A DNA stretch of 62,194 nucleotides, taken from contig NZ_SPMX01000001.1 in the NCBI RefSeq assembly GCF_012940005.1, positions 1 to 62,194 of the forward strand. The letters are read 5' to 3'. The notes under the pieces were generated by a model that was not told where the DNA came from, searched no databases, and worked only from the letters and a program-made list of their open reading frames with translations. The translations under genes were made by a program, and so were the position numbers. This stretch comes from Candidatus Accumulibacter contiguus (GTDB lineage: Bacteria > Pseudomonadota > Gammaproteobacteria > Burkholderiales > Rhodocyclaceae). Below, piece by piece: positions 4,014 through 61,853 of this stretch; positions within the stretch are counted from its first letter, which is position 1; each line of letters opens with the position of its first letter.

Positions 4014-5438
4014 ATGCCGCAGACCCTGTACGAAAAACTTTGGCAGGACCACCTCGTCCATCAGCAGGCCGATGGGACCGCGCTGATCTATATCGACCGC
4101 CATCTGGTGCACGAAGTGACCAGCCCGCAGGCCTTCGAGGGTCTCAAGCTGGCTGGCCGCAAGCCCTGGCGTGTTTCTTCGATCGTCGCTACCGCCGACC
4201 ACAACACCCCCACCGATCACTGGGATCGGGGCATCGAGGATCCGATTTCGCGCCTGCAGGTCGAAACACTCGACGCCAACATCCGTGCGGTCGGCGCGCT
4301 CGCCTATTTCCCGTTCAGGGATCCTCGCCAGGGAATCGTGCACGTCGTCGGCCCGGAAAGCGGTGCGACCTTGCCGGGCATGACGGTCGTCTGTGGGGAT
4401 TCGCATACCAGCACGCACGGCGCTTTCGCGTGCATGGCACACGGCATCGGCACCTCCGAGGTCGAACATGTTCTGGCCACGCAGTGCCTGCTGCAGAAGC
4501 AGTCGAAAACCATGCTCCTGCAGGTGGATGGGAGGCTCGCCAGGGGAGTGACGGCGAAGGACCTGGCGCTGGCGATCATTGCCCGGATCGGCACCGCTGG
4601 CGGCACCGGTCATGCCATCGAGTTCGCCGGGAGCACGATCCGCGGCTTGTCGATGGAAGGTCGGATGACGCTCTGCAACATGGCCATCGAAGCCGGCGCA
4701 CGCCTGGGTCTGGTGGCGGTCGATGAGGTAACCATCGACTACCTGCGTGGGCGACCTTTTGCGCCCAAGGGCGCGCAGTGGGAGCAGGCCGTTGCCGCCT
4801 GGCGTGGCCTGCACAGCGATGCCGATGCCCGCTTTGATCGCGTCGTCGAGATCACGGCCGAGGACATCCGGCCGCAGGTGACCTGGGGTACCTCGCCGGA
4901 AATGGTGGTGCCCGTCGATGCCTGCGTTCCCGATCCGGCCAATGAAGCCGATCCGGTCAGGCGCGAAGGCATGGAGCGGGCGTTGCGCTACATGGGTCTG
5001 AGCCCCAGGCAGCCGATCCGGGAGATCCGTCTCGACAAGATTTTCATCGGCTCTTGCACCAACTCGCGTATCGAGGACTTGCGGGCTGCTGCCGCGGTGG
5101 TCCAGGGCCGGAAAGTGGCCAGCAACATCCGGCTGGCGCTGGTGGTTCCGGGTTCGGGACTGGTCAAACGGCAGGCGGAGCGCGAAGGGCTGGACGAGAT
5201 TTTTCTTGCTGCCGGTTTCGAGTGGCGCGAGCCCGGCTGTTCGATGTGCCTGGCGATGAATGCCGATCGCCTCGAGGCGGGCGAGCGTTGTGCCTCGACC
5301 TCGAACCGCAACTTCGAGGGGCGACAGGGTGCAGGTGGGCGGACCCACCTGGTGAGTCCGGAAATGGCCGCGGCGGCGGCGATTGCCGGACATTTCTGTG
5401 ATGTTGGCGAGCTGCTTGGCCGCAAGGAGAAGGGATGA
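4014..5438 (+). CDS. leuC: 3-isopropylmalate dehydratase large subunit
   Basis: A 474-aa LeuC, the cytoplasmic aconitase-family subunit that isomerises 2-isopropylmalate to 3-isopropylmalate in leucine synthesis together with LeuD. Visible signatures are [24 protein letters not shown]-type substrate and cluster residues, [13 protein letters not shown] (first iron-sulfur cysteine) and GCSMCLAMN (the two other cluster cysteines). The length is normal for the bacterial family (about 470 aa). The ATG at 4014 gives the usual start [13 protein letters not shown]; the frame is open upstream to 3972. Its TGA overlaps the ATG of the next small gene, so translation is probably coupled. Confidence 0.97.
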
Positions 5439-7441: not shown

Positions 7442-8572
7442 ATGAGGAAGCTGGGTCTGGTGGGTTGGCGCGGCATGGTGGGATCGGTCCTGATGCAGCG
7501 GATGCTCGAAGAGGGGGATTTCGAACAGGTCGATCCGCTCTATTTTTCGACTTCATCGGTCGGAAGCAAGGCGCCCGTGCTGGCCGGCAAGGACGCCGGC
7601 ACATTGCAGGACGCGATGTCGATCGAGGCGCTGAGCCGGATGGACATGATCATCACCTGTCAGGGGGGCGACTACACCAAGGAAATCTTCCCTCGGCTGC
7701 GTGCTGCCGGCTGGCAGGGGCACTGGATTGATGCGGCTTCCACCCTGCGCATGCACGACGACGCGGTGATCATTCTCGATCCGGTGAACCTCGATGTGAT
7801 CAAGGATGCGCTGACCAGGGGCGGTCGCAACTGGATCGGTGGCAACTGCACGGTTTCGCTGATGTTGATGGGCATTGGCGGTCTGTTCCGGCAGGATCTC
7901 GTCGAATGGGTCAGCGCCATGACCTATCAGGCAGCGTCCGGGGCCGGAGCACAGAACATGCGCGAACTGCTGCAGCAGATGGGCGCGCTGCATGACGCGG
8001 TGCGCTCCGATCTGGCCGAGCCGGCCTCGGCGATTCTCGATATTGATCGCAAGGTTGCAAGGAGCATGCGATCGCCGGATTTCCCGACCCGGAACTTTCG
8101 CAACACGGCTCTGGCCGGTAGTCTGATACCGTGGATCGATGTGCCGGTCGAGGGCGGCCAGTCGAAGGAAGAGTGGAAAGGCGGTGCCGAGTGCAACAAG
8201 ATCCTCGGTCGTCCGGCCTTTCGCACGCCGGGCAGCATCCCGGTCGATGGTTTGTGCGTACGTATCGGTGCGATGCGTTGTCATGCGCAGGGTTTGACCA
8301 TCAAGCTCAAGAGTGATGTGCCGTTGACTGATCTGAACGAGATCATTGCCCAGGCCAATCCGTGGGTGAAAGTGGTTCCCAATGAACGCGAGATCACCGA
8401 GCGGGAACTGACGCCGGCCGCGGTTACCGGGACCCTGGCCATTCCGGTGGGTCGTTTGCACAAGCTGGCGATGGGGCCGGAGTATCTCGGCGCTTTCACG
8501 GTCGGGGATCAGTTGCTCTGGGGAGCGGCCGAACCGCTTCGCCGAATGCTCCGTATTCTGATAGAGGACTGA
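7442..8572 (+). CDS. asd: Aspartate-semialdehyde dehydrogenase
   Basis: A 376-aa enzyme that reduces aspartyl phosphate to aspartate semialdehyde for lysine, diaminopimelate, threonine and methionine synthesis. It opens [21 protein letters not shown], the long gammaproteobacterial/betaproteobacterial-type Asd. The active-site cysteine sits in [10 protein letters not shown] second signature is [17 protein letters not shown], followed by [16 protein letters not shown] near the C-terminus. It follows leuB by 22 nt with AGGAG (7430-7434) upstream, so it is probably expressed from the leu operon as in other betaproteobacteria. Confidence 0.97.
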
Positions 8573-32136: not shown

Positions 32137-34762
32137 ACGGCATCTCTACGCTGCTGCAGACATTCTGCGCAGCAAGATGGATGCGTCGGAATACAAGGAC
32201 TTCATCTTCGGCATGCTGTTCCTCAAGCGCTGCTCGGACGTCTTTGAGGCCGAGCGGGAGAAAGTCGTCGCCGACCACGGCGAGGCGTTTGCCTACGACC
32301 CGATGTTCTACGACAGCTTCTTCGTCCCATCGGAATCACGCTGGCAATATCTGATCGACAACCTCAATGCCGACCGTTACGCGACACTGCTCAACACTGC
32401 GCTGACCAAGCTTGGTGAACACAACGGTCCGCTGGAAGGTGTGCTCGACCATATCGATTTCATGAAGCAGGTCGGCAACAAGCGCGTCATCAACGACGAA
32501 GACTGCCGGGCACTTGCGCGACACTTCAACCGTTACCGCTTCCGCAATGGCGACTTCCAGTTCTCCGATCTGCTCGGTGCCGCCTACGAATTCCTGATCA
32601 ACATGTTCGCCGAATCGGCGGGCAAGAAAGGTGGGGATTTCTACACGCCGCGCGACGTGGTACGTCTGATGGTGCGACTGCTCAAGCCGGGACAAGGCAT
32701 GAGCGTATATGACCCGACCTGCGGGTCGGGCGGCATGCTCATCCTGTCCAAGGAGTACGTGGAACAGTGCGGTGGCAACAGTGCCGATATGCGCCTCGCC
32801 GGGCAGGTGCTCGACGTGTCCGCGTGGACCATCTGCAAGCTCAACATGATTCTGCATGGCATCCCCGACGCCCATATCGAGCGCGAAGACACCCTGCTGC
32901 ACCCCCTGCACCGTGAGGCCGGCGAACTGGAGCGCTTCGACCGGGTGATCGCCAATCCGCCATTCAGCCAGAACTATTCTCGCACCAACATGGAATTCCC
33001 CGAGCGCTTCCGCTGGGGGTGGTGTCCGACGACCGGCAAGAAGGGCGACCTGATGTTCGCCCAGCACATGCTGGCAGTGTGCAAGCCGACCGGCATGGTC
33101 GCCACCGTCATGCCCCACGGGGTGCTGTTCCGGGGCGGCGAGGAAAGAAAGATTCGCCAGAAGTGGATCGAGCAGGACTTGGTCGAGGCCGTCATCGGGC
33201 TACCGCAGAACCTTTTCTACGGCGCCACCATCCCCGCCGGCATCCTGGTGCTGCGCCCGGAGTCCAACCGAAAGCCGGCCGGCCGGCGCGGGCAGGTGTT
33301 GTTCATCAATGCCGACGCCGAATATCACGCCGGGCGCGCCCAGAACTACCTCAAGCCCGAACACGTGGAAAAGATCGTCTCCACCTTCGAGCGCTTCGAG
33401 AATGTGCCCGCCTATGCCCGTGCCGTGAGCGTGCAGGAACTCGCCGACAACGACTACAACCTCAACATCCGCCGCTACGTGGACAACGCCCCGCCACCGG
33501 AGCCCCACGACGTCAGGGCGCACCTGCAAGGTGGTATCCCGGTTGCGGAAATCGAAGCCAAGCGTTCGCTATTCGAGGCGGTCGGGCTGAACCCGGAGCA
33601 TCTATTCACGTTTCGCAACGGGCCATCTGCCAGCAGTGCGCACAGCGCGCCGGGTGTTCGCGAACCATCGGCGCATTATCTCGCGGCCCAAACAAGCTAT
33701 GCGGATTTTGCCGACATACTGGATAGCCGTGCCGACATCCGCCGGTTAATCGAGGCCGACACCGGCATCCGCGACCGGCGCGAACAGATATTCGCGGCCT
33801 GCGACGATTGGTGGGCTACCCACAGCCACCAGCTGGCTGATCTGCCCAATCGCCGTGACCTCAATGGGGTGCGCAGCGAGTTCCTGGAAACCTTTGGCGT
33901 TGCACTGTCGCCGATTGGCGCGCTGGATCGCTTCCAGCTTGCCGGCGTGGTGGCCGGCTGGTGGAGCGACAGCCTGCCCGACCTCAAGACGCTGATGGAG
34001 CGTGGCTTCGCCGGCGTCATCGAGGGCTGGCTGGATGCCATCGCCGATGCGCTGGAGGACGACGAAAGCAGTGGTCCGATCTTCGACCCGTTCACCCATC
34101 CGCTGGTGCTGAGCACCATGCAGGATTACCTGGCGCGCATCGAGGCCGAGCGCCAGGAGATCACCCGCCTGCGGGCCGAGAAGGAGGCATGGGAAGCCGA
34201 GAACCCGCCCGAGGACGAGGAGGAGGCCGAGGGCTGGAACTACGCCAGGAACCTGGAACGCCGCATCAAGGAACTCAAGGACAGCATCCGTGAAGACCTG
34301 AAGCGCTTCAAGGAACTGGAAAAGAAGCTCGGCATGAAGAAGTACGCCGGCAATACGGCGTTCGCCGCCGAGCACGCGGGCATCAAAGCTCAGCTCGCGC
34401 CGACGCTCGAGCAGATCGCGGCGCTGCAAGCGGAACTCGAACCCTATGAAACCATCACAGCCGATCTGGCCGCTACCCGTGCTCGCTATCGGGAACTGCT
34501 AAATCAATTCCTCGATACGCTCACCAAGCGGTGCAACGACATGAGTGGTGAGCAAACTGCCACGATGGTGCTGCGACTCTTGGAAGAGCGGGTACAAGCA
34601 GCACTGGATGGAGCCATTGCGAGAAGACGGCAGGTATTGATTTCTTGCATCGAACGACTTTGGGACAAGTACAGCGTCACGTTGCATCAGATGCAGCGAA
34701 CGCAGCAAGCGCTGCGGGGCAGCGTCGGTCAGTTGCTTCAAGGATTGGGCTATGTGCTCTGA
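32108..34762 (+). CDS. hsdM: Type I restriction-modification DNA methyltransferase subunit
   Basis: An 884-aa N6-adenine methyltransferase. The HsdM N-terminal helical domain ([34 protein letters not shown]) is followed by the catalytic domain. That domain has [18 protein letters not shown], the SAM motif [11 protein letters not shown] and the catalytic NPPFSQN. It is much longer than the roughly 500-aa EcoKI type. The extra C-terminal part holds a charged coiled coil ([22 protein letters not shown] and onward), as in the long HsdM subfamily. It overlaps the HTH gene upstream and hsdS downstream by 11 nt. Confidence 0.96.
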
Positions 34763-36071
34763 AGCCTTGCCGATGGATTCACCCTCACCTGTAGAACTGC
34801 CCGTCGGCTGGAGGGAGGTGCCGCTGCGTGCCGTGGCAGACACGAAATTCAGTAATGTCGACAAGCTCACCAAGTCCGGAGAACAGGCGGTACGACTGTG
34901 CAATTACGTTGACGTCTACAACAACGATTATATCACCGAAGCCATCGAGTTCATGGAAGCCACCGCATCGCAGCCCGAGATCGACAGGTTCCACCTTCAG
35001 GTCGGCGATGTGATCATCACCAAGGATTCCGAGACTCCCTACGATATCGGGACTCCAGCACGGGTGGACTACGCGACCGACGACTTGGTTTGCGGCTATC
35101 ACCTCGCATTGCTGCGCCCTGATCAGGATGCTGTTGATTCCGACTATCTGAGCAAGCAGATTGGGCATTCTCGGCTGGCCGGATACTTTGCGCGGATGGC
35201 GAACGGCCTCACTCGATATGGGCTATCAGTTGGCGCCATCAGCAGCGCCCCTGTCTGGCTTCCCCCTCTGAACGAGCAGCGACAGATTGGTCGAGCCTTG
35301 AGGGAGATTGATACCGCCATCGAGCAAGCCGAAGCGCTGATCGCCAAGCTCAAGCAGGTGCGGGCGGGATTGCTGCATGACCTGCTGATAAGAGGAATCA
35401 ATGACAACGGCGAAATTCGCGATCCCATCGCGCATCCCGAACAGTTCCAGAACTCCCCTCTTGGGTTGATTCCATGCGGCTGGACAATCGAGACGCTCGT
35501 CAGTCGTATCGCGCTTCCGCAGGGCCAAGTTGATCCTCGACTCGCGCCGTATTGCGATTGGATCCTCGTTGCGCCAGACCACGTCGAATCAGTGACGGGG
35601 CGGCTGCTTGCGAGTGTCACTGCGGCTGAGCAAGGTGCCATATCCGGAAAGTATGTGTTTGGCCCTGGCGACGTCATCTACAGCAAGATTCGCCCGTATC
35701 TTCGGAAAGCTGTTCTGGCCTCTGGTGAGGGTCTATGCAGTGCCGATATGTATCCCCTTCGCCCCAATGACGGAGTCCATCCGCGATTCCTACTTGCAGT
35801 TATCTTGGGCGAGCCATTCTCAAGATTCGCTTCCGCCGTTTCAATGCGTAGCGGATTTCCCAAGATCAACAGAGAAGAGTTGGCCGAGTTCGTTACGAGC
35901 TGGCCACCGTTCGATGAACAGCAGCGCATCGCAAGCGCCATCGAATTGTGTGACCGCGAGCAGGACGCGATTGAGAACGAACTGACAAAGTTGCATCTTT
36001 TAAAATCCGGCCTGATGGCCGATCTGCTCAGCGGCCGCGTCCGCGTACCAGCCGGCCTGGAGGTGGCCTGA
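34752..36071 (+). CDS. hsdS: Type I restriction-modification specificity subunit
   Basis: A 439-aa HsdS with two target-recognition domains and two conserved helical regions. The first TRD starts at [15 protein letters not shown] and ends with [43 protein letters not shown]. The second starts [16 protein letters not shown] and ends [45 protein letters not shown]. Each TRD reads one half of a bipartite target. Both repeats are complete, so it looks functional. It overlaps hsdM by 11 nt and the next small ORF by 1 nt. Confidence 0.95.
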
Positions 36072-36289
36072 TGCCCCCTCTGCACAAACTCCTCGCTGAT
36101 TTCCCGTCCAACCACCCCGACGACGGCAGGCGCGAACAGACTCTGCCCGAGCGCATCGCCGAACTCGAAGCGGAAAACGCGCACCTGCGCGCCGCGCTGG
36201 AGCAAATCGCCGGGTTTCCTCACGCGCCGGACGCCTGGATCGTCGCCCGCTCGGCATTGCAGCCGCTGAAGGAAAAGCCCGAGCGATGA
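36071..36289 (+). CDS. Small coiled-coil protein between hsdS and fic
   Basis: A 72-aa protein with a short predicted coiled coil (LPERIAELEAENAHLRAALEQIAG, about residues 25-48), then a proline-containing helix and a basic end. It overlaps hsdS by 1 nt (TGATG) and the Fic gene by 4 nt, so it is translated as part of the operon. No family is recognised. The position immediately before fic suggests it could be the Fic partner or antitoxin, but this Fic already carries its own inhibitory motif. Confidence 0.65.
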   Translation: MPPLHKLLADFPSNHPDDGRREQTLPERIAELEAENAHLRAALEQIAGFPHAPDAWIVARSALQPLKEKPER

Positions 36290-37482
36290 GCTTCTCACCT
36301 CGCTTCGCCTATTCCCATGCGATGGTGCGCAACCTCGGCCTCATCGAGTCCGCTCGCGCCGTGGTGGATGTGCTGCCCCTGCCGCCGGATCAGGAGCTGC
36401 GCCTGAAGCAGGCGGCCCGGCAGCGGGCGACGCGCCATTCCACGCGCATCGAAGGCAACACCCTGAACTCGGAGCAAGTGGGGCAGGCGGTGATGGCGGT
36501 GGGCAAGAGTCAGACCGAAATGCAGCAGGAGGTGCGCAACTACTGGCGCGCGCTGGAGTGGATCGAGGAGCAGTTGGAGGCCAATCGGCACCCGTCCGAG
36601 GAATTCATCCGCGAGTTGCATAGCATCATCCTGGTGCGCGGCATGGGCCGGCGGGGCCTGCGCAGCGACTATCGCAGGGAGGAATGTCCGGTGGTGGATT
36701 TGGCTACCCGCCGCATCGACTACGCTCCGCCGACGCCCGCCGACGTGCCGGTATTGATGCGGGAACTGGTGGCCTGGTGGCAAGGCGAAGCGGCGGCTGC
36801 GCTGCCTGGCCCGGTGCGCGCCGGCCTGCTGGCGCACCGTTTCGTCAGCATCCATCCCTTCGGCGACGGGAACGGTCGCACGGCCCGTGCCCTGGCGACG
36901 GCCGAGTTGTGGCGCAGCGGCTACGAGATGCGCGGCTTCCTGTCGCTGGAGGAACACTACACGGCAGACCTCGGCGCCTATTACGACCATCTTCAGATGG
37001 GTCTGCCGGTGAATTTCTACGACGGGCGCCATGACCCGGACCACGGCCAGTGGCTGGAGTTTTTCCTGGCCACGATGGCGCGTGCGGCGGACGATCTGCG
37101 CCGTCAGGCCGTCGACCTTTATGCGCCCCATCGCCGTCGGGCGCCGCCTTGGGAATCGCTACGCCGGGTGCAGCAACAACTCCTGACGCGCCTGCTGATG
37201 CGTGGTTTGGAAACCGGTTCGGAAGGCCTCGCGTTCACCCCCTCCGACATGGTCGAGTGGTTCGGTATTTCCGCCAACACCGGACGGGAATGGCTGGACC
37301 GCTGGCGCGGTGAGGGATTCGTGGAGCCGGCCAGGGCCGGAGTTCAGCGCGTTCGAGCGTATGTGCTGAGCTCCAAGTGGCACAGCCTGTTACGTGAGGC
37401 TATTGCGTTTAGCGCAAGCGTTAACACAAGCAAAACCAGCAAAAAAATGACCGAGTGCAAAGCTAAATCAAATGGTTGTTGA
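36286..37482 (+). CDS. Fic-domain AMP-transferase with intramolecular inhibitory helix
   Basis: A 398-aa Fic protein. The catalytic loop HPFGDGNGRTAR starts at His190. The inhibitory motif S-T-R-I-E-G-N at residues 52-58 fits [S/T]xxxE[G/N] on the N-terminal side, so this is a class II, self-inhibited Fic. The C-terminus carries a winged-helix-like segment (MVEWFGISANTGREWLDRWRGEGFVE). Fic enzymes AMPylate target proteins. Its place between hsdS and hsdR, overlapping the small ORF by 4 nt, ties it to the restriction operon, a recurrent arrangement in mobile type I systems. The tail after residue 385 is lysine-rich and low in complexity. Confidence 0.93.
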   Translation: MSFSPRFAYSHAMVRNLGLIESARAVVDVLPLPPDQELRLKQAARQRATRHSTRIEGNTLNSEQVGQAVMAVGKSQTEMQQEVRNYWRALEWIEEQLEANRHPSEEFIRELHSIILVRGMGRRGLRSDYRREECPVVDLATRRIDYAPPTPADVPVLMRELVAWWQGEAAAALPGPVRAGLLAHRFVSIHPFGDGNGRTARALATAELWRSGYEMRGFLSLEEHYTADLGAYYDHLQMGLPVNFYDGRHDPDHGQWLEFFLATMARAADDLRRQAVDLYAPHRRRAPPWESLRRVQQQLLTRLLMRGLETGSEGLAFTPSDMVEWFGISANTGREWLDRWRGEGFVEPARAGVQRVRAYVLSSKWHSLLREAIAFSASVNTSKTSKKMTECKAKSNGC

Positions 37483-37543
37483 CGTATCCACCAAGAAATA
37501 ACACAAGCCTGCGGACGCGGATAAGGGACTTTGGGGAGGCGAC

Positions 37544-40500
37544 ATGAGCGATTCGGTTGCTCCGTACGTGGGGTGCAAGATCGAATGGGAGGGACTGCTG
37601 GTCGAGCAGCCCTTCTGCCAGCAACTCGAAAAGATGGGCTGGGAGTGGCTGACCGGTGACACCGATGTCCCCGAACTCACCGAGCGAGCAAATTTCCGTG
37701 AGGTGCTGCTGAAGGATCGGCTGACCAAGGCGCTGCACAAGATCAACCTTGGCCCGGACGGAGTAAACGGAGCGCAGCCCTGGCTGGATGAAGCGCGCAT
37801 CGAGCGTGTGATTCACCAACTGGAGCTGACCGCCGGCTTGCGCCTGATGGAGGCCAACCGGCAGCTCACCGAGCTGCTGCTCAAGGGTACGGTGACCGAT
37901 GGTTTGCCCGGATGGGACGCCGGCCGCCAGCAACCGCTGCGCTATATCGACTTCGATGACTGGAAGAACAACGATTTTCTGGTGATCAACCAGTTCAAGG
38001 TGCAACTGACCAGCGGGCGGGGACACATCATTCCCGATGCAGTCCTGTTCGTGAACGGCATTCCGTTGGTAGTGGCGGAATTCAAGAGCCCCGGCATCGA
38101 GGCACCCATTGCTCAGGCGATCAACCAGTTGCTCCGCTACACCAATCAGCGCAAGGAACTCTACCCTGAGCAGTACACCGAAGATGAAGGGACCGAGCGG
38201 CTGTTCCATTCCAACCAATTGCTGATCGCCAGCAATTTCTTCGAGGCCCGTGCAGCCACTATCGGTGCACCGCCCGAGGTCTATCTGGAATGGGCGGACA
38301 CCAGCCCGCTGCCGATGTCGCAGGTAGGCGAGGAAGTCGGGCTGATTCCGCGCACACAGGACATTGCCGAAGCCGAAGAGGTGGCGTCCGCTGAACTGCG
38401 TGCGCTGGGGCCGGAGCAGGCGGATCGGGCAGGGACGCCGTTGTTCTATCGGCAGAAGGCCATCGAGGTATCGTCTGATACCGCGCAATCGGCAGTACCT
38501 TCCGCCACCGGCAAGGGACTGGCGAGCCAGCAGATTCTGGTTGCTGGCATGTTGCGCCCTGATCATCTATTGGACGTGATGCGCAATTTCACTTTGTACC
38601 AATCGGGTGAAGGCAAGACGCGCAAGGTGGTGGCACGCTACCAGCAGTTCCGCGCCGTTCACAAGGCCATCGAGCGCCTGAAAACCGGCCGCAGTCGGAA
38701 AGCAGGCGCGGAGCGGGACGAACGTGGCGGCATCGTCTGGCATACACAAGGCTCGGGCAAGAGCCTGACAATGGTGTTCCTGGTGCGCAAGATGCGCACG
38801 CTGGGCGATCTCAGAAAGTTCAAGATCGTTGTGGTCACGGATCGCAGCGACCTGGAGAAGCAGCTACGCGAAACAGCCTCGCTTACCGGCGAGACTGTGC
38901 GCCCGTCCGAAAGTGACAAGCAACGCAGGGAATCGGCGACCGCCGCAACGCAGCGGATTCTGGCCGAGAAATCCCCGGACATCGTGTTCGCCATGATCCA
39001 GAAATATCAGGATCAAGTGGCGCGGCGCGAGGCAGACAAGATCAAATTGACCATCGCCCGTAAGGAAATCCGCGTCGCCGAGCAGGGAGTGAACAAGGTT
39101 CCCAAACGTGTCGAGGAAATCAAACAGGTCACCTTCGAGGAAACCATCCAGTTCGAACGGTTCCCGGAGCTGAACGACTCCGAGAACATCCTGGTGCTGG
39201 TCGATGAGGCGCACCGTTCCCATACCCGGACGCTGCATCGGAATTTGCACAAGGCATTGCCGAACGCCGCCATCATCGGCTTTACCGGCACGCCCATTCT
39301 GTCCAAGGAAAAGACGGAGACGCGGAAAATCTTCGGCGACTACATCGACCGATATCTGCTACAGGACGCAGAGATGGACGGCGCCACCGTGCCCATTCTC
39401 TACGAGGGCCGCACCGCCGATGGCATGGTGAAAGACGCGACCAGTCTCGATCAGGTGTTCGAGGACTTGTTCCGTGGATACACCGATACCGAACTCGCCA
39501 TCATCAAGGCCAAGTACGCCACTCAGGGGGACGTGCTTGAGGCACCACTGCTGATCGAGAAGAAGGCGGCGGACATGCTTCGGCACTACGTGAGCGTGGT
39601 GTTGCCGGAGGGGTACAAGGGCCAGGTAGTCGCCACCAGCCGCAATGCAGCGGTGATCTATTACGAGAAGCTCGCGGCAGCCAAGGGCGCTCTCGTGGCA
39701 CAGCTGGAAGCCTTGTCAACGGCCATTCTTGCCCTGTCCGAAGATGACCAGGCCAAGCTGGATGCCGAAACGCGATTCTTGATCGACGCGCATCCGAAGC
39801 TTGACCTGATTCGAGCACTCGAATTCGCCGTAGTCATGTCCGGCAACCACAACGACCCCGAATCGTGGAAGAAGTGGACGGACAAGGAAAAACAGGAAGG
39901 ACTGGTCGAGCGCTTCAAGCGACGCCTGGCGCCGGCCAAGTCGGACAAGACCGACCCCTTGGGCCTCCTGATCGTTACCAATATGCTGCTGACGGGCTTT
40001 GATGCTCCGGTCGAGCAGGTGATGTATCTCGACCGCAGAATCATTGCGCATGACTTGCTGCAGGCCATTGCTCGCGTGAACCGTACCAGTGGCCGTAAGC
40101 CGCGCGGCTATGTGGTGGATTACATCGGCGTGGCCCGTCATCTGAATGATGCCTTGGGCGATTACGACGCCGATGATCTCAAGGGCATCGGCCTCGACAT
40201 CAACAACGAACTGCCGAAGCTACGCGACCGCCACGCCCGGGTGATGGCGGTGTTCTCGGACCGGGGAATTACGGACTTGCTCGAAGGTGTCCAGGCTGCG
40301 GTCGATTTGCTCGCCGACCTGAAAATTCGTGCCGACTTCATCAACAAGCTGCGTCTCTTCTACGAAACGCTGAGCATCCTCGAACACCGTCCGGAGGTAA
40401 CGCCGGAAATGTTCCGCGATGCCAAGTTGCTGGGCTTCATCAACAAGGTCGCCGCCAATCTCTATCGAGACTCGACGCTGAATTTGCTCGGCGTGCCGGA

Positions 40501-53039: not shown

Positions 53040-54663
53040 ATGAATCTACGTGACAGCAATATCGGCAAGCTGGATCAGCGCGTCTACGACGTGCTGATCA
53101 TTGGCGGCGGCATCAACGGCGCGGTGTCTGCTGCCGCCCTGTCGGGCAAGGGCGCGGCCGTGGCCTTGATCGACAAGCGTGATTTTGCCGGTTTCAGCAG
53201 CCAGCAGTCATCGAACCTGGCCTGGGGGGGGCATCAAGTATCTCGAAAGCGGCGATTACACGCTGGTCAGAAAGCTGTGTCTGAGCCGCAATCATCTGAT
53301 TCGCCACTATCCATCGCGAGTCAAGGAGATTCGCTTCTTTGCCACGATAGAAAAGGGTTTCCGCTTTCATCCCCTGATTCTCTGGGCGGGTACCTGGGTG
53401 TACTGGCTGTTCGGGAACGGTTTCACCAGGATGCCGCGCCGCTTTTCGAGGCAGGCCATCGCGCACGAAGAACCGCTGGTCGACACGCGCTACGCCGCGG
53501 GCGGCTGCGAATATTCAGACGCCTACCTGCACGACAACGACTCCCGCTTTGTTTTTCAGTTCGTTCGCTCGGCAATGGACCGCGGCTGCATCGCGGCCAA
53601 TTACGTGGAATCGCTCGGCGCCCGCCGTGCAGGCGGGTACTGGCGGACCAGGGTGCGCGATGTGATCAATGGGCGGACCCTCGAAATCTGCTCGAAGGTG
53701 CTGATTAACGCTGCCGGTCCGTTTGTGGACGAGCACAATGCACTGACTGGCGAAGAAACGGATCATCATCATCTGTTTTCCAAGGGCATCCACCTGATCG
53801 TGCCGCAGATCACTCCGAAGCAGCGAATCCTGACCTTTTTCGCCGACGACGGGCGCCTGTTTTTCGTCATCCCGATGGGCGTTCGCACCTGCATCGGCAC
53901 CACCGACACACGGGTGGACTCGCCGTTCACCGAGGTGACCGACGAAGATCGTCAGTTCGTTCTCGACAACATCAACAAGCGCCTCAAGATCGCGCGGCCA
54001 CTGAGCCGCGCCGACATCATCGCCGAGCGTTGCGGGGTGCGCCCGCTGGTGGTCAAGGCGAGAGGCGACGGCGGGCTCCGGGACTGGATGCAGTTGTCGC
54101 GCAAGCACGAGATCGATGTCAATTGGGCCACGGCTCATCTGAGCATCTTTGGCGGCAAGCTGACCGACTGCGTCAACGTGGGTGACGAGGTATCAAAGAT
54201 CGTCACCCGGCTTGGTGTCGCGCTGCCGTACCGGCAATACAAGTGGTATGGCGAACCGCACCCTTCGGTACGCGAGGAATACATGCATCAGGCCAGGCTG
54301 ATGAATCTCGACAGCTATACCTCGCCGGAGTCGATCGAGAGCCTGAGCAGTCGGCTATGGCGGCGCTACGACCAGCAGGCACTGGCCCTGCTTGCCGAAA
54401 TCCGCGAGAACCCGAGGCAGGCGGAAGTCTTGATCAAGGGTACCGACTACATTCGTTGCGAGATTCGGCTGGCCAGACATCAGGAAATGATCGTCAAGCT
54501 CGAAGATTTCCTGCGGCGCCGCTCCAAGATCGCCCTGGTGGTGCGCCGGGAAGACATCAGAAACGCCAACGGGCTGATGGAGGCGTGTGAAATCCTGTTC
54601 GGCGATCAGGCCAGGGAGAAATACGACGAGTATTTCCTGGAGCGATCAGACGCTGGGGGATAG
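53040..54663 (+). pseudogene. glpD: Aerobic glycerol-3-phosphate dehydrogenase, frame broken at a G8 run
   Basis: The first frame has the FAD Rossmann motif (VYDVLIIGGGINGAVSAAALSGKG) and SSNLAWGG. It is lost at eight G (53224-53231). The next frame continues IKYLESGDYTLVRKL and then HLIVPQITPKQRILTFFADDGRLFFVIPMG, GTTDTRVDSP and FGGKLTDCVNVGDEV to a stop at 54663. Seven G would give one intact protein of about 540 aa that oxidises glycerol-3-phosphate to dihydroxyacetone phosphate at the membrane. The last 365 bp are duplicated at 59052. No glp regulator or transporter is nearby. Confidence 0.88.
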
Positions 54664-54758
54664 CCCACCCTCGAGCTTCCCGAAGACCCGCCCTTGCCGA
54701 GAAACAGGCAAGGCGCACAACGACGTCGAGGAGAACTCGGTGACCCGCTTCTTGGCGA
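54294..54758 (+). repeat. 465-bp duplicated segment, copy A (end of glpD plus 95 nt)
   Basis: This segment is repeated at 59052-59517 in the same orientation, 4758 bp away, with only about seven substitutions and one inserted base. It comprises the last 370 nt of glpD and the spacer after it. The two copies bracket the IS and restriction remnants and the ATPase/DUF4276 pair. Confidence 0.92.
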
Positions 54759-54767
54759 AGTTCTGGA

Positions 54768-54928
54768 TGCACGAAGCAGCACGCGCGCTCGGCTTCCGGA
54801 CCGGCGTCGTCGCACCGGCAGACGTCGATTGGCAGAAGCTGCCACCGCCGGCCACCAGGAAACAGCCGACCCTCACGATCTCATCTGCGCGCACAAGTCC
54901 TTCGGTTTTGACTGGTTCGTTCCCGAAC
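54768..54928 (+). pseudogene. Internally deleted fragment of the type I secretion ABC transporter
   Basis: The stretch beginning TGCACGAAGCAGCACGCG matches 59866-60225 of the ABC transporter gene (HEAARALGFRTGVVA then TADPHDL-CA-K-FGFDWFVPE). About 190 nt are missing between the CAGAAGCTGCC and GCCACCGCC borders. It sits right after duplicated glpD sequence. Copy A therefore preserves the order glpD end then transporter start, with deletions. Confidence 0.85.
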
Positions 54929-55114: not shown

Positions 55115-55285
55115 AAGAGCCAAAAAAAAGACCTCGAACCGCGTTTGGCTCAGGCGGAACAGGGTCAGCGAGCCGTGTTCTTCGTAGACGCGGCGCACTT
55201 TGTCCTTGGTGCCTTCATGTCGGTGGTGTGGTGCTTGACTCGGGTCTGGATCAGGGCGCCCTCGGGCAGGCAGCGCTTCCCTGCC
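55115..55285 (+). mobile_element. IS630-family transposase fragment
   Basis: A single frame reads [52 protein letters not shown]. This matches the DDE core of IS630-type transposases (FVDAAHF-hydrophobic-W, with APSGRxRFNVLGA expected next). Both ends are missing and it runs straight into an IS91-type fragment at about 55285, so it is a dead remnant. Confidence 0.8.
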
Positions 55286-55287
55286 CG

Positions 55288-56286
55288 GCGGCGGGTTCCG
55301 ATGCCCGGATCGGGGCGCTTGCCTTCATTCACCGCTTTGGCGCGCTGCTCAATCCGCATGAGCACTTCCACTGCATCGTCATCGAAGGCGTCTTCGAGGC
55401 GGACGCTTCAGGAACGGCGACGTTTCAGGAAAGCAGTGCCCCCGACCGGAAATTGCTCGACGAAGTGCAGGCCAAGGTCCGCCGCCGTCTGCTGCGCGCG
55501 CTGACCCGGCGCGGTGTGCTTGAGCCGGAAGATGCCGAGACGATGGCAAGCTGGGAGCACGAGGGTGGCTTCTCGGTCGACGCCAGCGTGCGCGTCGAAG
55601 GGGCCGACCGCCTGGGCCTGGAACGGCTGCTACGGTATTGCGCTCGACCGGCCTTTGCGCTGGAACGTTTGCGTGAACTCGACGCCGAACACCGGGTCTA
55701 TGAGCGCGTCAAGCCGGGTCCCTGCGACAGCGTCCGCTGGATGCTCACGCCGCTCAAACGGTTCGAGCGTCTGGCGGCGCTGATTCCACCCCCGCGCCGT
55801 CCTCGACATCGGTACTACGGCGTACTGGCGCCCAACGCACCGCTACGCGCACAGGTCACCGCGCTTGCCGGCGTGCCAGAGCGTCCGACCGCGCCGCTGG
55901 TTACAGCGACTGAGACGGAGACTGAGCCAATCGCGGCGCCAATCACCGCCCCAGGCGCGTCGTCCGACAGCGAGGAGCAGGCAGAGGAAGCGCCCCTGCG
56001 TCGTGCGACCGGCTACGTCTGGGCGCTGCTGCTCACGCGGATCGATGAGGTCTTTCCGCTCGTCTGCCCACGCTGCGGCGGTGAGATGCGAATCATCGCC
56101 TTCATCACCGACGCCGGCGCGGTGCGCGACATCCTGACCCATCTGGGCGAGCCAACATCGCCGCCACGCCTGATGCCCGCCCGTGCACCGCCGCTCTGGG
56201 AGATGCAGGGCGCCACCATGGGCGAGGACGACCCACAGGCTCAACCGGCACCTGAGTACGAATTCGACCAGCGTATCGCCTGGTAG
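55288..56286 (+). mobile_element. IS91-family transposase, 5'-truncated
   Basis: About 332 codons of an IS91-type (HUH) transposase remain. It has [29 protein letters not shown] (His-hydrophobic-His motif), [53 protein letters not shown], and a C-terminal zinc motif [14 protein letters not shown]. The N-terminal zinc-binding part is missing, replaced by the IS630 fragment. A 15-bp perfect hairpin lies 79 nt downstream and may be the element's terminus. Confidence 0.88.
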
Positions 56287-56364
56287 GTGCGGGTTGGAAG
56301 TATCCATGCGCAAAGGTCCAGACTGAAGCCAGACGAGCTGCCATCGCCCGTCGTGGGACGACTC

Positions 56365-56408
56365 GTGCCTGTGTTCATCGGCCCGGCCGGGCGGATGAAC
56401 ACAGGCAC
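56365..56408 (+). terminator. Perfect 15-bp hairpin after the IS91-type ORF
   Basis: GTGCCTGTGTTCATC (56365-56379) pairs perfectly with GATGAACACAGGCAC (56394-56408). The 14-nt loop between them is itself palindromic (CCCGGCCGGG). It could be the 3' subterminal hairpin typical of IS91-like rolling-circle elements, or simply an intrinsic hairpin. There is no T-run after it, which argues against a Rho-independent terminator. Confidence 0.5.
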
Positions 56409-56469
56409 TGGGCGAGGCGGGATTCGGATGACTTTTCATGGGTTCCTGGGACCCAATCCGAGATTGACG

Positions 56470-56730
56470 CCCGTTGATGAAGGCTCATATACTCCATATA
56501 CTCTCGATGGTGCCGTTGGATTTCCTATCCTTGGCCATCAGCGTGCGCTAGTCGCATCGATTCTAGACGTCGGAGTTGTAGATCCCCCCTCGTCTGTTAT
56601 CGCGGCTTTCGATCAGCGTGTCGACGGCTTGCTGGCTCGAACGTTTGAGTGTCGACGCGAAACCTGCACCCTCACCAACCTGCGTGACACCCTCCTGCCC
56701 AAGCCGATCTCCGGTGAATGCTGCGTGTGA
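56470..56730 (+). pseudogene. C-terminal fragment of a type I specificity subunit (HsdS)
   Basis: The frame reads [19 protein letters not shown], then [22 protein letters not shown]. This is the conserved end of many HsdS proteins ([16 protein letters not shown]). Everything upstream of about 56470 is lost at the IS91 border. It marks the former hsdS gene of a second type I restriction locus whose hsdR start lies at 58652. Confidence 0.75.
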
Positions 56731-56761: not shown

Positions 56762-58003
56762 ATGAAACCGTCCGATGTACGACCCGGCGCCCCGGCGCGC
56801 ATCGAGTACCTGAAGGTACAGAACTTCCGCGCCTTGCGCGAGGTCGAGTTCAAGGAACTGACGCCCTTGACGGTGCTTCTCGGCCCCAACGGCAGCGGCA
56901 AGTCCACCGTCTTCGACGTGTTCGCTTTCCTGGCCGAGTGCTTCGAAGTGGGGCTCCGTCGAGCCTGGGACAAGCGCGGCAGGGCCAAGGAACTCAAGAC
57001 TCGCGGCGGCGAGGGGCCGGTATCGATCGAGATCAAGTACCGCGAGCGGGGTTATCCGCTGATTACCTATCACCTGGCCGTGGACGAGCGCGCTGGCAGG
57101 CCGGTGGTGATCGAGGAGTGGTTGCGCTGGAAGCGCGGTAGCCACGGGCAACCGTTTCGCTTTCTCGACTACCGCGAGGGTCTAGGCCGCGCCGTCAGCG
57201 GCGAACAGCCCGATGCACAGGACCGGCGCATCGAGGTGCCGCTGAAGTCCTCCGACTTGCTGGCGGTGAACGCGCTGGGTCAATTCGCCGAGCATCCTCG
57301 TGTCGCCGCCTTGCGGGAGTTCATCACTGGCTGGTACGTGTCCTATCTGTCGGCAGACAGCGCACGTGGCCAGCCTGAGGCCGGTCCGCGCGAGCGCTTG
57401 AGCAAGACCGGCGACAATCTCGCCAACGTGATCCAGTACCTGGCCGAGCAGCACGAGGGACAGCTCGAACGAATCTTTGCCGTGCTGCGTAGCCGCGTGC
57501 CACGAATCGAACGTGTACTCGCCGAGACCATGCCGGACGGCCGCCTGCTGCTGCAGATCAAGGATGCGCCGTTCAGCCATCCGGTACTCGCGCGCTTTGC
57601 CTCCGACGGTACGCTGAAGATGCTCGCCTATCTGGTGCTGCTTTACGACCCGGTGCCACCTCCCTTCATCGGCATCGAAGAGCCCGAGAACTTCCTGCAC
57701 CCGCGCCTGCTGCCGGAACTCGCCGAGGAATGCCGAACCGCCAGCGGGCGTACGCAGTTGCTGGTGACTACACATTCTCCCTTCTTTCTCAATGCACTAC
57801 GGCCGACAGAGGTGCGCGTGCTGTGGCGCGACGAGCAGGGTTACACGCAGACGCAGCGCGCGTCGGACTTGCCCGGTGTGCCCGAGTTTGTCGAACACGG
57901 CGCCTTGCTTGGCCATCTCTGGATGGAGGGCCAGCTTGGCGTCGGCGATCCGCTGGTCAATCAGGGAGCGCCAACTCGCCCCCTGCGAGCGCGCAAGCCA
58001 TGA
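56762..58003 (+). CDS. AAA_21/OLD-like ATPase (candidate defence ATPase)
   Basis: A 413-aa ABC/SMC-type AAA ATPase. The Walker [10 protein letters not shown] is residues 41-49 after [17 protein letters not shown]. The signature-like [19 protein letters not shown], the Walker [14 protein letters not shown] and the H-loop [14 protein letters not shown] follow. There is no nuclease domain of its own. It overlaps the DUF4276 gene by 4 nt (ATGA). Pairs of such ATPases with a TOPRIM-like partner are a common architecture of anti-phage systems (OLD, Gabija, PARIS). It lies between hsdS and hsdR fragments. Start ATG 56762; the frame is open upstream. Confidence 0.88.
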
Positions 58004-58617
58004 CGGCAATGCATCTGGAATTCCTGGTCGAGGAGCCGTCGATGGAGGCCTTCCTGCGCGCCCTGTTGCCGCGCCTGCTGCCCAGCGATCGCAGCTTCGA
58101 GGTGCATCCATTCCAGGGCAAGAGCGACCTCCTGAGCAAGTTGCTGGATCGTCTGCGCGGCTATGCGCAGTGGTTGCCGGAAGACTGGCGCATCGTCGTG
58201 GTGGTCGACCGCGACGACGACGACTGCGCGAAACTGAAGACAAAGCTTGAAGCGATGGCCGAGGCAGCCGGATTGATGACGCGATCACGCGCCGCTGGGC
58301 GACGGTGGCAACTCGTCAACCGCATCGCGATCGAGGAACTCGAAGCGTGGTACTTTGGCGATTGGCAGGCAGTCTGCCGCGCCTATCCGCGAGTGTCGCC
58401 CAACCTTCCGAAGCAGGCAGCCTTTCGCGATCCCGATGGCATCCGCGGTGGCACATGGGAAGCCTTCGAGCGCGTCCTACAGCGGCAGGGTTATTTCAGG
58501 ACTGGCTTGCGAAAGATCGAGGCCGCGCGAACCTTCGGGACTCAGCTCGATGCCGATCGCAGCCATTCGCGGAGTTTCGTGACGTTCCGCGCGGCGATTG
58601 CCGAGGCGATCGCATGA
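58000..58617 (+). CDS. DUF4276 protein with TOPRIM-like motifs (partner of the ATPase)
   Basis: A 205-aa DUF4276 member. The first strand ends in [19 protein letters not shown] (acidic residues E11/E12) and a second ends in [14 protein letters not shown] (D70/D72). This E...DxD layout is what a TOPRIM nuclease domain would show. Further family landmarks are [24 protein letters not shown] and [17 protein letters not shown]. It overlaps the ATPase by 4 nt. The inferred role is the nuclease or effector of the pair; this is not demonstrated. Its codon use is like the neighbours. Confidence 0.85.
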
Positions 58618-58651: not shown

Positions 58652-59059
58652 ATGGCCAGCTTCACCGAATCCCTCGTCGAAGACGCCGCCCTCGCCTGGT
58701 TCGAAGCCCTGGGCTACACGGTGCTGCACGGACCGGCCATCGCCGTCAGTCAACCTGGCGCCGAGCGCAGCGACCCGAACTACCACGACGCGATGCTTGA
58801 CGGGCGGCTCCGCCAGGCACTCGTCAGCCTGAATCCCGACCTACCGCACGCAGCGCTGGAAGACGCCTTTAGAAAGCTGACGCGCAGCGATGTGTTATCG
58901 CTAATCGAGCGCAACCGCGCGGTGCCCCGGATGCTCCTCGACGGCGCCACGGTCGCGTACCGCCGCCAGGATGGCTCGATCGCGGGCGCGCAGGCGCGCG
59001 TCATCGACTTCGACACGCCGGAGAACAACGACTGGCTGGCCGTCAACCAGTCAGGCTGA
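58652..59059 (+). pseudogene. N-terminal fragment of a type I restriction subunit HsdR
   Basis: About 134 codons of an HsdR start remain: [53 protein letters not shown], and [15 protein letters not shown], where the nuclease domain should begin. It breaks off at about 59051, where duplicated glpD sequence starts, and hits a TGA at 59057. With the hsdS tail at 56730 it shows that the ATPase/DUF4276 pair was located between hsdS and hsdR. Confidence 0.85.
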
Positions 59060-59421
59060 TGAATCTCGACAGCTATACCTCGCCGGAGTCGATCGAGAGC
59101 CTGAGCAGTCGGCTGTGGCGGCGCTACGACCAGCAGGCACTGGCCCTGCTCGCCGAGATCCGCGAGAACCCGAGACAGGCGGAAGTCTTGATCAAGGGTA
59201 CCGACTACATTCGTTGCGAGATTCGGCTGGCCAGACATCAGGAAATGATCGTCAAGCTCGAAGATTTCCTGCGGCGCCGCTCCAAGATCGCCTTGGTGGT
59301 GCGCCGGGAAGACATCAGAAACGCCGACGGGCTGATGGAGGCGTGTGAAATCCTGTTCGGCGATCAGGCCAGGGAGAAATACGACGAGTATTTCCTGGAG
59401 CGATCAGACGCTGGGGGATAG
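59052..59421 (+). pseudogene. Duplicated 3' fragment of glpD
   Basis: It repeats the last 370 nt of glpD (codons from [20 protein letters not shown] to the end, YDEYFLERSDAGG) with a few changes. An ATG at 59059 leaves a 120-aa open frame, but nothing suggests it is expressed. The homology with copy A continues past the stop to 59517. Confidence 0.9.
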
Positions 59422-59732
59422 CCCACCCTCAAGCTTCCCGAAGACCCGCCCTTGTCGAGAAACAGGCAAGGCGCACAACGACGTCGAGGAGAACTCGGTG
59501 AACCCGCTTCTTGGCGAAGCCCTGGGGATGAGCTCGGAAGTGGTCTGTTGACTGGTGATCAAATGAACAGTAGAGTGGCCCGCATCCTGACGGTCATGAC
59601 TTTCCCGGCCACTGATCATGAAAGTCATCATCGTTTCCCTCTCCCCTGACCCCTCCACTGCGAGGGAGAAGAGAGATTCGTGAGTCGCTGACGCGACTTT
59701 CACATGAAGGGCGGAACGGAAGCATAACAATC
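59422..59732. other. Spacer with duplicated sequence and element copy 4
   Basis: 59422-59517 still matches copy A (54664-54758). A unique stretch, 59518-59587, then leads into the dispersed element copy 4 and the transporter start. No gene is seen. Confidence 0.6.
59588..59705 (+). repeat. Three-hairpin dispersed element, copy 4
   Basis: It starts TGACGGTCATGACTTTCCC and pairs with a slightly decayed right arm (AAAGTCATCATCGT). A weakened second hairpin (several substitutions) and an intact GAGTCGC...GCGACTTTCACAT stem follow. It lies 28 nt before the ABC transporter start, the same placement as copies 1 and 2 before leuD and namZ. Confidence 0.85.
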
Positions 59733-61853
59733 ATGTCTCGAGTGGAGGGGGTGAGGCACGAGGACGTCATCTGGCTTCTGGGCAGCCTCAGCGCACTGTA
59801 CCGCTTGCCGTTCGAAGCGAGTCTGATCGAGCAGGAGTTTCCGCCGCCGTACACCCTCGCCACCCTGCACGAAGCAGCACGCGCGCTCGGCTTCCGGACC
59901 GGCGTCGTCGCGCAGGCAGACGTCGATTGGCAGAAGCTGCCGCTGCCGGCCATTGCGTTTCTGCAGACTGCGGCTGTCCCGGAAGGGCCACCGCCGGTCT
60001 GCCACCCGGTTCTGATCGTAAACACCGATGGTCAGTCGCTGCTCTGCTTCGCAGCCGGCAAGCAAACTCCCGAAACACTGCCGATTGCCGAAGCGCACCG
60101 GCGTTTCGAAGCGGAAGTCATTCTGCTTGCCAGAAACGCCACCGCCGGCCACCAGGAAACGGCCGACCCTCACGATCTCGTCTGCGCGCGCAAGCCCTTC
60201 GGTTTTGACTGGTTTGTTCCTGAACTCGTCAAGCACCGGTCGATCTGGCGCGACGTGTTGCTTGCCAGTCTGGCGATCCAGTTCGTCGGCCTGGCAACGC
60301 CTCTGTTCACCCAGGTGATCATCGACAAGGTGGTCGTCCATCAGACGCACGGCACGCTGATCGTACTGGGTGTCGCACTGCTGATGTTCATGCTCTTTTT
60401 CGGCAGCATGACCTGGTTGCGCCAGTATCTCATCCTGCACACCGGCAACCGCATCGATGCCGTCCTCGGCGCCCAGGTCTTCCGGCACCTGCTGCAACTG
60501 CCGCTTCCCTACTTCGAACATCGCCCGACCGGCACGCTGGTCGCGCGTCTGCAGGGGATCGAAACCATTCGCGAGTTCGTCTCGGGCGCGTCCGTCACCC
60601 TGATTCTCGATCTTCCCTTTCTGCTGCTGTTTCTGGCGGTGATGTTCGCCTATAGCTGGCAGCTCTCACTGATCGCCATCGTCCTGCTCGGGGCGATCGC
60701 CGTCATCAGTCTCCTGGTCGCACCGCTGTTTCGCACCAGACTCAACCGGCAATTCCTGCTCGGCGCCCGCAACCAGGCATTCCTGACCGAGTACCTTGCG
60801 GGCATGGCGACCGTCAAGTCGCTGCAGATGGAACCCGACATCGATCGTAAATATGGCGATTACCTGGCCCAGTACCTTGCTGCCGGCTTCGCGACCCGAC
60901 AGGTTGGCAATACCTACAACGTGGTGGCCAACGGACTCGAACAGTTGATGACCCTCGCCATCCTGATCGTCGGCGCGCTGCTGGTGATGCAGAACGAGGG
61001 CTTCACTGTCGGCATGCTGGTCGCCTTCCAGATGTTCGCCAGCCGCATGAGCCAGCCTCTGCTGCGAATCGTCGGTCTGTGGCAGGAGTTCCAGCAAGCC
61101 AGCATCGCCGTCAAGCGGCTCGGCGACATCCTCGACATGCCGCGCGAGCCGCACACGCTGGTTCCGCATCGCCAGAAGCTCGATGAAGCTCTGCTGACCA
61201 TCGACAAGCTTGCTTTCCGCTACTCCGAACAGCATCCCTGGCTATTCAGAAATCTCGACCTGGCTTTCCCACCGGGTCAGCTGACCGTCGTCACTGGTCC
61301 TTCAGGCTGCGGCAAGAGCACGCTGGCGAAACTGCTGCTCGGCTTCTATCAGCCGGTGGAAGGTCACATTGCGCTTGACGGCAAGGACATCCGTCATCTC
61401 GCCGCCAACGAACTGAGAGCGACTTTCGGAGTGGTACCGCAGGAGACCGTGCTGTTTTCCGGCACGCTCTACGACAATCTGCTCATGGCGCACCCGCATG
61501 CCGGTTTCGAGGAGATCGTCGCCGCCTGCAAGGCCGCCGAGATTCACGAAGTCATCGAACGGTTACCGAAAGGCTATCAGACCGAGATCGGCGAACGCGG
61601 CACCGGGCTTTCCGGCGGACAGCGGCAGCGCATCGCCATTGCCCGGGCACTGCTCAAGCGCCCGCGCATCCTGATTTTCGACGAAGCCGTGTCCAACCTC
61701 GACCCGCAAACGGCCGGACACCTTGCGTCAACGATCAACCAGCTGAAGGGGAGGGTGACGATGATCTTCATTACCCACCAGGTTCCGGCCGGCCTGCAGG
61801 TCGATGAGGTATTCGCTTTTCACGGCACGCCGGGCGCAGTTTCGGTCAAATAA
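59733..61853 (+). CDS. Type I secretion ABC transporter (HlyB/LapB-like) with inactive C39-like domain
   Basis: A 706-aa permease-ATPase. The N-terminal 130 residues resemble the C39 peptidase fold but lack the catalytic cysteine (WLLGSLSALYRLPFEASL at the Cys position), as in HlyB-type chaperone domains. A six-helix membrane domain follows (SIWRDVLLASLAIQFVGLATPLFTQVIIDKVV onward). The ATPase has GPSGCGKST, LSGGQRQRIAIARALL and ILIFDEAVSNLDPQT. It should export RTX-like or adhesin substrates with an HlyD adaptor and TolC. No adaptor or substrate follows within the window. Its first part is duplicated at 54768. Confidence 0.93.
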   Translation: MSRVEGVRHEDVIWLLGSLSALYRLPFEASLIEQEFPPPYTLATLHEAARALGFRTGVVAQADVDWQKLPLPAIAFLQTAAVPEGPPPVCHPVLIVNTDGQSLLCFAAGKQTPETLPIAEAHRRFEAEVILLARNATAGHQETADPHDLVCARKPFGFDWFVPELVKHRSIWRDVLLASLAIQFVGLATPLFTQVIIDKVVVHQTHGTLIVLGVALLMFMLFFGSMTWLRQYLILHTGNRIDAVLGAQVFRHLLQLPLPYFEHRPTGTLVARLQGIETIREFVSGASVTLILDLPFLLLFLAVMFAYSWQLSLIAIVLLGAIAVISLLVAPLFRTRLNRQFLLGARNQAFLTEYLAGMATVKSLQMEPDIDRKYGDYLAQYLAAGFATRQVGNTYNVVANGLEQLMTLAILIVGALLVMQNEGFTVGMLVAFQMFASRMSQPLLRIVGLWQEFQQASIAVKRLGDILDMPREPHTLVPHRQKLDEALLTIDKLAFRYSEQHPWLFRNLDLAFPPGQLTVVTGPSGCGKSTLAKLLLGFYQPVEGHIALDGKDIRHLAANELRATFGVVPQETVLFSGTLYDNLLMAHPHAGFEEIVAACKAAEIHEVIERLPKGYQTEIGERGTGLSGGQRQRIAIARALLKRPRILIFDEAVSNLDPQTAGHLASTINQLKGRVTMIFITHQVPAGLQVDEVFAFHGTPGAVSVK

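Follow-up and report, generated by a model that had tools for sequence, protein, structure and literature searches.

Why does an intact pair of genes stand between two broken type I restriction genes in Candidatus Accumulibacter contiguus? The window analysed here is a stretch of 62,194 nucleotides of contig NZ_SPMX01000001.1, and the pair consists of an ATPase gene (56762..58003, plus strand) and a DUF4276 gene (58000..58617, plus strand), with a remnant of hsdS before it and a remnant of hsdR after it. We consider it probable that the two genes form a split relative of the OLD family, listed in the PADLOC database as HEC-01, that works as an ATPase-gated TOPRIM nuclease defence module, riding in type I operons and able to outlive them.

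The two proteins

Both open reading frames (ORFs), 56762-58003 and 58000-58617, run without an internal stop and overlap by 4 nt. Pfam assigns the first product (413 residues) to AAA_21 at 2.7e-31 and the second (205 residues) to DUF4276 at 3.9e-29, the latter having at E <= 1 otherwise one weak, unrelated match; the description given in the initial annotation, of a 413-residue AAA_21-type ATPase overlapping a DUF4276 gene by 4 nt, therefore holds. The HEC-01 models of PADLOC match both proteins over nearly their full length: the ATPase (HEC-01A) model PDLC04182 covers residues 12-396 of 413 (2.8e-162) and the partner (HEC-01B) model PDLC04202 residues 4-204 of 205 (2.9e-89). The PADLOC model for AriA matches the ATPase far more weakly than HEC-01A, at 3.9e-31. 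The ATPase has a Walker A motif, GPNGSGKS, at residues 41-48, a Walker B region, IGIEEPEN, at 303-310, and THS at 337-339. Structure comparison of its predicted fold gives an SMC/Rad50 head, and on this model the protein is an ABC ATPase like those of SMC, Rad50 and PtuA, of the SMC-OLD type.

For the DUF4276 protein a TOPRIM-like fold had been proposed, with E11/E12 and D70/D72 as likely catalytic residues. Comparison of the predicted structure with TOPRIM folds supports the first proposal, in that re-alignment of Foldseek's top 1000 chains gives a TOPRIM plus helical architecture like that of OLD. The second stands in part. E11 is glutamate in 82/82 close and 13/14 distant relatives (one gap), and D70 and D72 are aspartate in 96/96, whereas E12 is an acidic position and not an invariant glutamate (81 E and 1 D among close relatives; 7 E, 6 D and one gap among distant ones). 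The two-metal site of OLD (E, DxD, a glutamate of the helical domain, and K) is matched by E11, D70, D72, E113, E115 and K172 in conservation, order and spacing, not by residue-level superposition. As modelled, the DUF4276 protein is thus a free-standing TOPRIM and helical catalytic unit with a predicted OLD-like two-metal site.

Distribution and linkage to type I restriction operons

How widespread is the pair, and how constant its company? DUF4276 relatives occur in 18 of the 399 genomes of the window's order, its own genome included. A scan of contigs kept the best 80 of at least 565 confirmed relatives, and these 80 span many phyla and methanogens (archaea). A matching ATPase gene lies directly upstream of DUF4276 in all 98 longer loci (96 distinct, L022 and L023 repeating L063 and L062); in L045, L070, L079 and L102, where the contig starts there, only the end of the ATPase is present. 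The junction between the two genes is overlapping or close (0-20 nt) in 80/83. Phage-borne cargo was considered and rejected: at E <= 1e-3 the 50,697 phage records searched gave no match. In IMG/VR, two loci at 25-32% identity were found with one peptide pattern, and three of 72,556 plasmids had a match, one of them the Meiothermus operon described below.

The pair is well linked to type I restriction. The hsd families were derived by clustering ORFs and then building models from the clusters. By these models the best 80 relatives comprise 19 with both hsdS and hsdR in the embedding position, 5 with hsdS only, 3 with hsdR only and 53 with neither; 27/80, about a third, thus have hsdS and/or hsdR there, a figure for near relatives and not for the family as a whole. 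Restricting the count to the 72 relatives whose flanks are 300 bp or longer on either side gives 19, 4, 1 and 48 in the same order. Pfam confirmed hsdS and hsdR in L041, L061 and L067, and hsdM in L041, L061 and L053. Weak or outlying signals in three of the 53 loci were left uncounted: an hsdS-like match (57 bits) 6.8 kb upstream in L044, an hsdM-like match (36 bits) downstream in L083, and in L104 a type I operon upstream on the other strand. All hsdS tail and hsdR head signals within 3 kb lie on the strand of the pair, and two are misplaced, a short hsdS tail downstream in L042 and an hsdR head upstream in L093, confirmed by cleaner models. Upstream hsdR signals in L021, L050 and L113 were rejected, as cleaner head models did not repeat them; we infer that they were alternate-frame residues in the first hsdR model.

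Two controls bear on this linkage. An hsdS tail is present in 21 of the 77 intervals of 350 bp immediately upstream of the ATPase, as against 3 of 1387 farther intervals in the same loci, two of these three falling at hsdS genes of embedding operons; the adjacency of hsdS and the pair is therefore not due to chance. The background frequency of hsdR, 122 HSDR_N matches in ~176 Mb from 40 of the genomes, predicts that ~0.05 of 40 loci would have an hsdR in the same orientation at most 3.5 kb downstream, against 11/40 observed, 7 of them long, which is to be read as an order-of-magnitude comparison because Pfam supplies the expectation and cluster-built models the observation. The co-location of DUF4276 with AAA_21 ATPases and the enrichment at hsd loci, which the initial annotation anticipated, are thus borne out, with the ATPase in 98/98 and the linkage to hsdS and hsdR far above background. 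A type I partner in cis seems, all the same, not to be required, since in 53/80 nearest relatives the embedding position is free of type I genes.

Cargo at the hsdS-hsdR junction

The embedded pairs are often joined to their hosts by overlapping start and stop codons. Where an hsdS tail lies within 350 bp, 15/21 tails overlap what may be the start codon of the ATPase by 4 nt (GTG in one case); the window does not belong to these 15. Among the 17 directly downstream hsdR heads, the window's included, the start overlaps the DUF4276 stop by four bases in 7 and by one base in 1. On an annotated plasmid of Meiothermus taiwanensis the genes run in the order methyltransferase, DUF262, hsdS, DUF4433, macro domain, ATPase, DUF4276, hsdR, with four-base overlaps at both ends of DUF4276; DUF4433 next to a macro domain is the arrangement of DarT/DarG.

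Other cargo is found in or beside the same slot: PDDEXK_3, DUF4433 with macro domain, Fic, Mrr_cat with DUF3644, TIR, an AAA_15 protein, DUF5131, DUF4143, RhuM, DUF1828/1829, DUF4268 and a KwaB-like protein. Because this unrelated cargo occupies the slot, position there need not mean function. The window's own genome provides a case on contig C95, where a type I operon has a PDDEXK_3 gene (7597-8019) between hsdS and hsdR; this gene shares four bases with hsdR, whose head is 51% identical to the stump in the window. In L084 (3997-8630), four extra genes, encoding an AAA_15 ATPase, a TIR protein, a protein without a Pfam match and a DUF5131 protein, lie between hsdS and the pair. Between hsdS and hsdR a published study places DarTG2 as well as a cluster of two genes, one of them for an AAA-like ATPase, and it regards the site as a potential recombination hotspot (PMC12255303). 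That cluster occurs there in four genomes, in the RptR island, and the partner of its ATPase is called a putative RNA-binding protein (PMC12255303).

The broken locus and its history

How was the operon in the window broken? The hsdS remnant is a 3' stump of ~50 C-terminal residues (56569..56730, plus strand), whose frame stops before the ATPase start, without overlap. It occupies residues ~95-146 of ORF 56287-56730 and matches Specificity_I of PADLOC (1.6e-10); a Pfam scan of this ORF gave no match. The hsdR remnant is a 5' stump of 133 residues (58652..59051, plus strand), its start codon 34 bases past the DUF4276 stop, and ORF 58652-59056 matches HSDR_N of Pfam (1.9e-14) and REase_I of PADLOC (3.8e-13). 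These matches confirm the hsdS tail and hsdR head that had been recognised on either side of the pair. The further proposal, that the pair is internal cargo of a type I locus, draws its support from the relatives and not from the window itself, where only hsd stumps remain.

The break in hsdR, at 59051/59052, is where the second copy of a glpD-like 3' end starts. This right copy (59052..59525, plus strand; Pfam DAO_C) abuts and truncates the hsdR stump, and the left copy lies at 54294..54766 (plus strand); the two are 97.7% identical over 474 columns and enclose the whole insert as a direct repeat. On the other side, the DNA of an IS91/ISCR-like element, with a Y2 transposase ORF at 55228..56286 (plus strand), recurs on several other contigs of the genome, and the similarity ends at ~56532-56560, near the start of the hsdS stump. 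Between these broken hsd ends the pair keeps its main motifs.

Several further features were seen in this genome. The gap that separates the hsdS stump from the Y2 transposase ORF contains a 44-base palindrome (56365-56408, 95% self-complementary); found also on contig C102 near a related element, it is possibly one terminus of the IS91/ISCR-like element. Beyond the right copy of the direct repeat, the next gene is duplicated in pieces as well, 59866-59952 and 60094-60225 recurring at 54768-54928. The glpD-like frame, which outside its DAO_C end we take to be glpD, is split over two overlapping ORFs (53040-53708 and 53179-54663) in a way that resembles a frame change. A second type I system lies in the window at 32564-38260, with N6_Mtase at 32564, Methylase_S at 34926-35987 and HSDR_N at 37601; the hsdR head of this system shares 33% identity with the stump at 58652. 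Contig C120 (L038) carries a second, distant ATPase-DUF4276 pair, with DUF4276 at ~3913-4413, the two proteins being 38% and 29% identical to those of the window.

Ten loci besides the window have an hsd signal without full-length hsdS and hsdR (L042, L049, L050, L054, L058, L065, L071, L074, L093 and L113); L042, L071 and L093 run up against contig ends, the signal of L065 is a weak hsdS tail (E 0.003), and L045, L102 and L109 were assigned to the full group by hand. Both genes of the pair exceed the length cut in 9 of the 11 stump loci, the window included, the exceptions being L042, with a stop inside DUF4276, and L093, with an ATPase of 376 residues, just short of the required 380. Loci L021, L110 and L093 each have an additional short hsdS tail, 70-73% identical in DNA to the first, placed after another hsdS tail and before the ATPase, and L045 shows the hsdR head twice. 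Judged from the sequences, these doubled tails and heads would fit an exchange of cargo by recombination at the end of hsdS and the start of hsdR.

On the ATPase tree, hsd-linked and unlinked loci are mixed, with 15 changes of the label for no hsd signal, at least 7 of them forced by well-supported branches, and that label is also clustered (0/500 shuffles as low). The tree was made by a quick method without bootstrap, has 31 weak inner branches out of 81, and excludes 11 of the 14 distant rows and two rows under 150 residues. A single insertion into one restriction lineage was rejected on account of these changes.

Comparison with known systems

Is the pair, then, a new system? A new, unlisted system was rejected, since PADLOC already lists both genes as HEC-01; the claim of a distinct two-gene module fails in this sense, and ATPase cargo of two genes between hsdS and hsdR has also been published (PMC12255303). 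HEC-01 stands for Hma-embedded candidate 01, named for its embedding in Hma, whereas the analysis here covered type I genes and found the embedding in operons of that kind. Passages citing Payne 2024 report several HECs, including HEC-06, to be active, and HEC-01 is not named in those passages. A literature search for the word DUF4276 returned no paper. Neither an OLD-like DUF4276 site, nor the start/stop overlaps with hsdS and hsdR, nor the stumps were found in the literature passages; the HEC-01 preprint and a 2020 survey of ABC ATPases, which according to PMC12839542 describes TOPRIM-linked OLD-ABC systems, may hold some of these.

The likeness to OLD nucleases of Class 2 lies in the predicted fold, the order of the active-site residues and their rough spacing; those enzymes are single polypeptides, whereas the pair is made of two ORFs with a 4-nt overlap. 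In PARIS, as here, the ATPase is separate and of OLD/SMC type. The PARIS effector AriB is a DUF4435 protein, whereas the DUF4276 protein has no DUF4435 match in Pfam at E <= 1. AriA activates AriB upon detection of Ocr, and AriB then cleaves tRNAs of the host (PMC12839542; PMC12409363); the separate ATPase and TOPRIM genes of PARIS possibly make it an OLD class of its own (PMC10568477). Gabija shares the combination of OLD-type ATPase and TOPRIM, but in that system the two are fused in GajA and the partner GajB is an SF2 helicase (PMC12839542), whereas the immediate neighbours of the pair in the window are the hsdS stump, the hsdR stump and the Y2 transposase, with no helicase. The distinction from PARIS and Gabija made in the initial annotation is thus sound. 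RloA is an ATPase and RloB a TOPRIM-like protein; no RloB-family match for DUF4276 was found at E <= 1 in the Pfam and NCBIfam libraries, which include an RloB model (folds were not compared). In Campylobacter jejuni, rloA and rloB are, like the pair here, two slightly overlapping genes in an hsd locus (PMC2928727).

Proposed function and alternative explanations

From the genes, their predicted folds and conserved residues, the pairing, the linkage, the overlaps and the stumps, a most likely scheme can be drawn for what regulates the pair, what triggers it, what it cuts and how it might defend the cell. The ATPase would bind the nuclease and hold the DUF4276 protein inactive. An infection signal, read through the state of ATP or nucleic acid or through a phage protein, would then free or activate the nuclease, and this metal-dependent enzyme would cut nucleic acid, whether DNA of the phage or, in the manner of AriB, tRNA of the host, and so stop the infected cell. 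PARIS may serve as the nearest worked example of such an ATPase-nuclease mechanism. Close relatives, in a large minority of cases, carry the pair inside a type I operon (hsdM-hsdS-ATPase-DUF4276-hsdR), often with overlaps of start and stop codons by 4 nt at the joins, and the pair would therefore be produced along with the restriction enzyme, as a second layer. In the window, hsdS is down to a stump beside the IS91-like element and hsdR to a stump beside the duplicated glpD-like end, and the pair appears to be what is left intact of the broken operon.

Several observations weigh against this reading. Plain Foldseek finds nothing for the DUF4276 model at E <= 0.001 (best 6.2e-3), so that the OLD match depends on re-aligning the top 1000 chains of its list; a sequence-profile search of the PDB with DUF4276 gave no TOPRIM relative, the top matches being designed helical proteins; and the active-site match uses residue order and spacing, not superposition. 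OLD and PARIS chains are absent among the 50 matches listed for the ATPase model, which excludes nothing. The ATPase is better conserved than the nuclease in 91/91 comparisons (median identities 76% versus 63% in 77 close pairs, 42% versus 34% in 14 distant ones), unlike a fast-evolving phage sensor. No hsd signal in the embedding position was found by the cluster-built models in 53/80 nearest relatives, nor in any of 14 distant relatives from the same order, and the pair could have been kept through chance after the hsd genes were lost.

Might the pair instead guard the type I enzyme, firing upon its inhibition or loss, much as PrrC does for EcoprrI and PARIS in its response to Ocr? The initial annotation had suggested that the pair possibly senses restriction failure or anti-restriction proteins. 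Inhibition of the type I enzyme in whose locus it is embedded triggers PrrC, and both PrrC and PARIS have been described as guardians of restriction-modification systems (PMC12707154), with Ocr detected by AriA (PMC12839542). By this analogy, and given an embedding between hsdS and hsdR with 4-nt overlaps, the idea is reasonable and a sensing of restriction failure plausible. It is countered by the many near and all the distant relatives without hsd signal, by the unrelated cargo in the same slot (PDDEXK_3, KwaB-like, Fic, Mrr_cat, TIR, DUF4433 with macro domain) and by the window, where the neighbouring hsd genes are stumps and the pair is intact; we regard it as rather unlikely. A broader version, in which the hsdS-hsdR junction is a docking slot for translation-wired backup nucleases, the pair starts at the end of hsdS, senses failure of the enzyme and outlasts it with stumps, and many orphan pairs across phyla are operon fossils, seems to us unlikely.

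Two explanations dispense with phages or with defence altogether. The pair could be a stability cassette in the manner of toxin-antitoxin systems, with the DUF4276 nuclease as toxin and the ATPase as its keeper, persisting because its loss is costly. The constant pairing (98/98), the tight junctions (80/83) and the survival of both genes in 9/11 stump loci would all suit such a cassette, but the keeper is usually the faster-evolving partner of a toxin, and here the ATPase is the better conserved one throughout (91/91), so that we think this improbable. More doubtful still is a pair concerned with DNA maintenance, a RecF/SMC-like ATPase with a nuclease, near restriction genes by chance. The SMC/Rad50 head fold and the spread over phyla and into archaea would allow it, as would an archaeal OLD-family ATPase with a role in the cell cycle (PMC12796447); the patchy occurrence (18/399 genomes of the order), the hsdS/hsdR linkage far above background and the listing in PADLOC as a candidate defence system all speak against it, and we give it little credence.

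If a split, ATPase-gated OLD relative is the right description, the listed candidate HEC-01 would gain a concrete biochemical model, that of an OLD enzyme in two parts whose TOPRIM domain holds a two-metal site. This could explain why such pairs occur both inside restriction operons and alone, and pairs that stay intact beside broken type I genes would offer a testable case of layered immunity.
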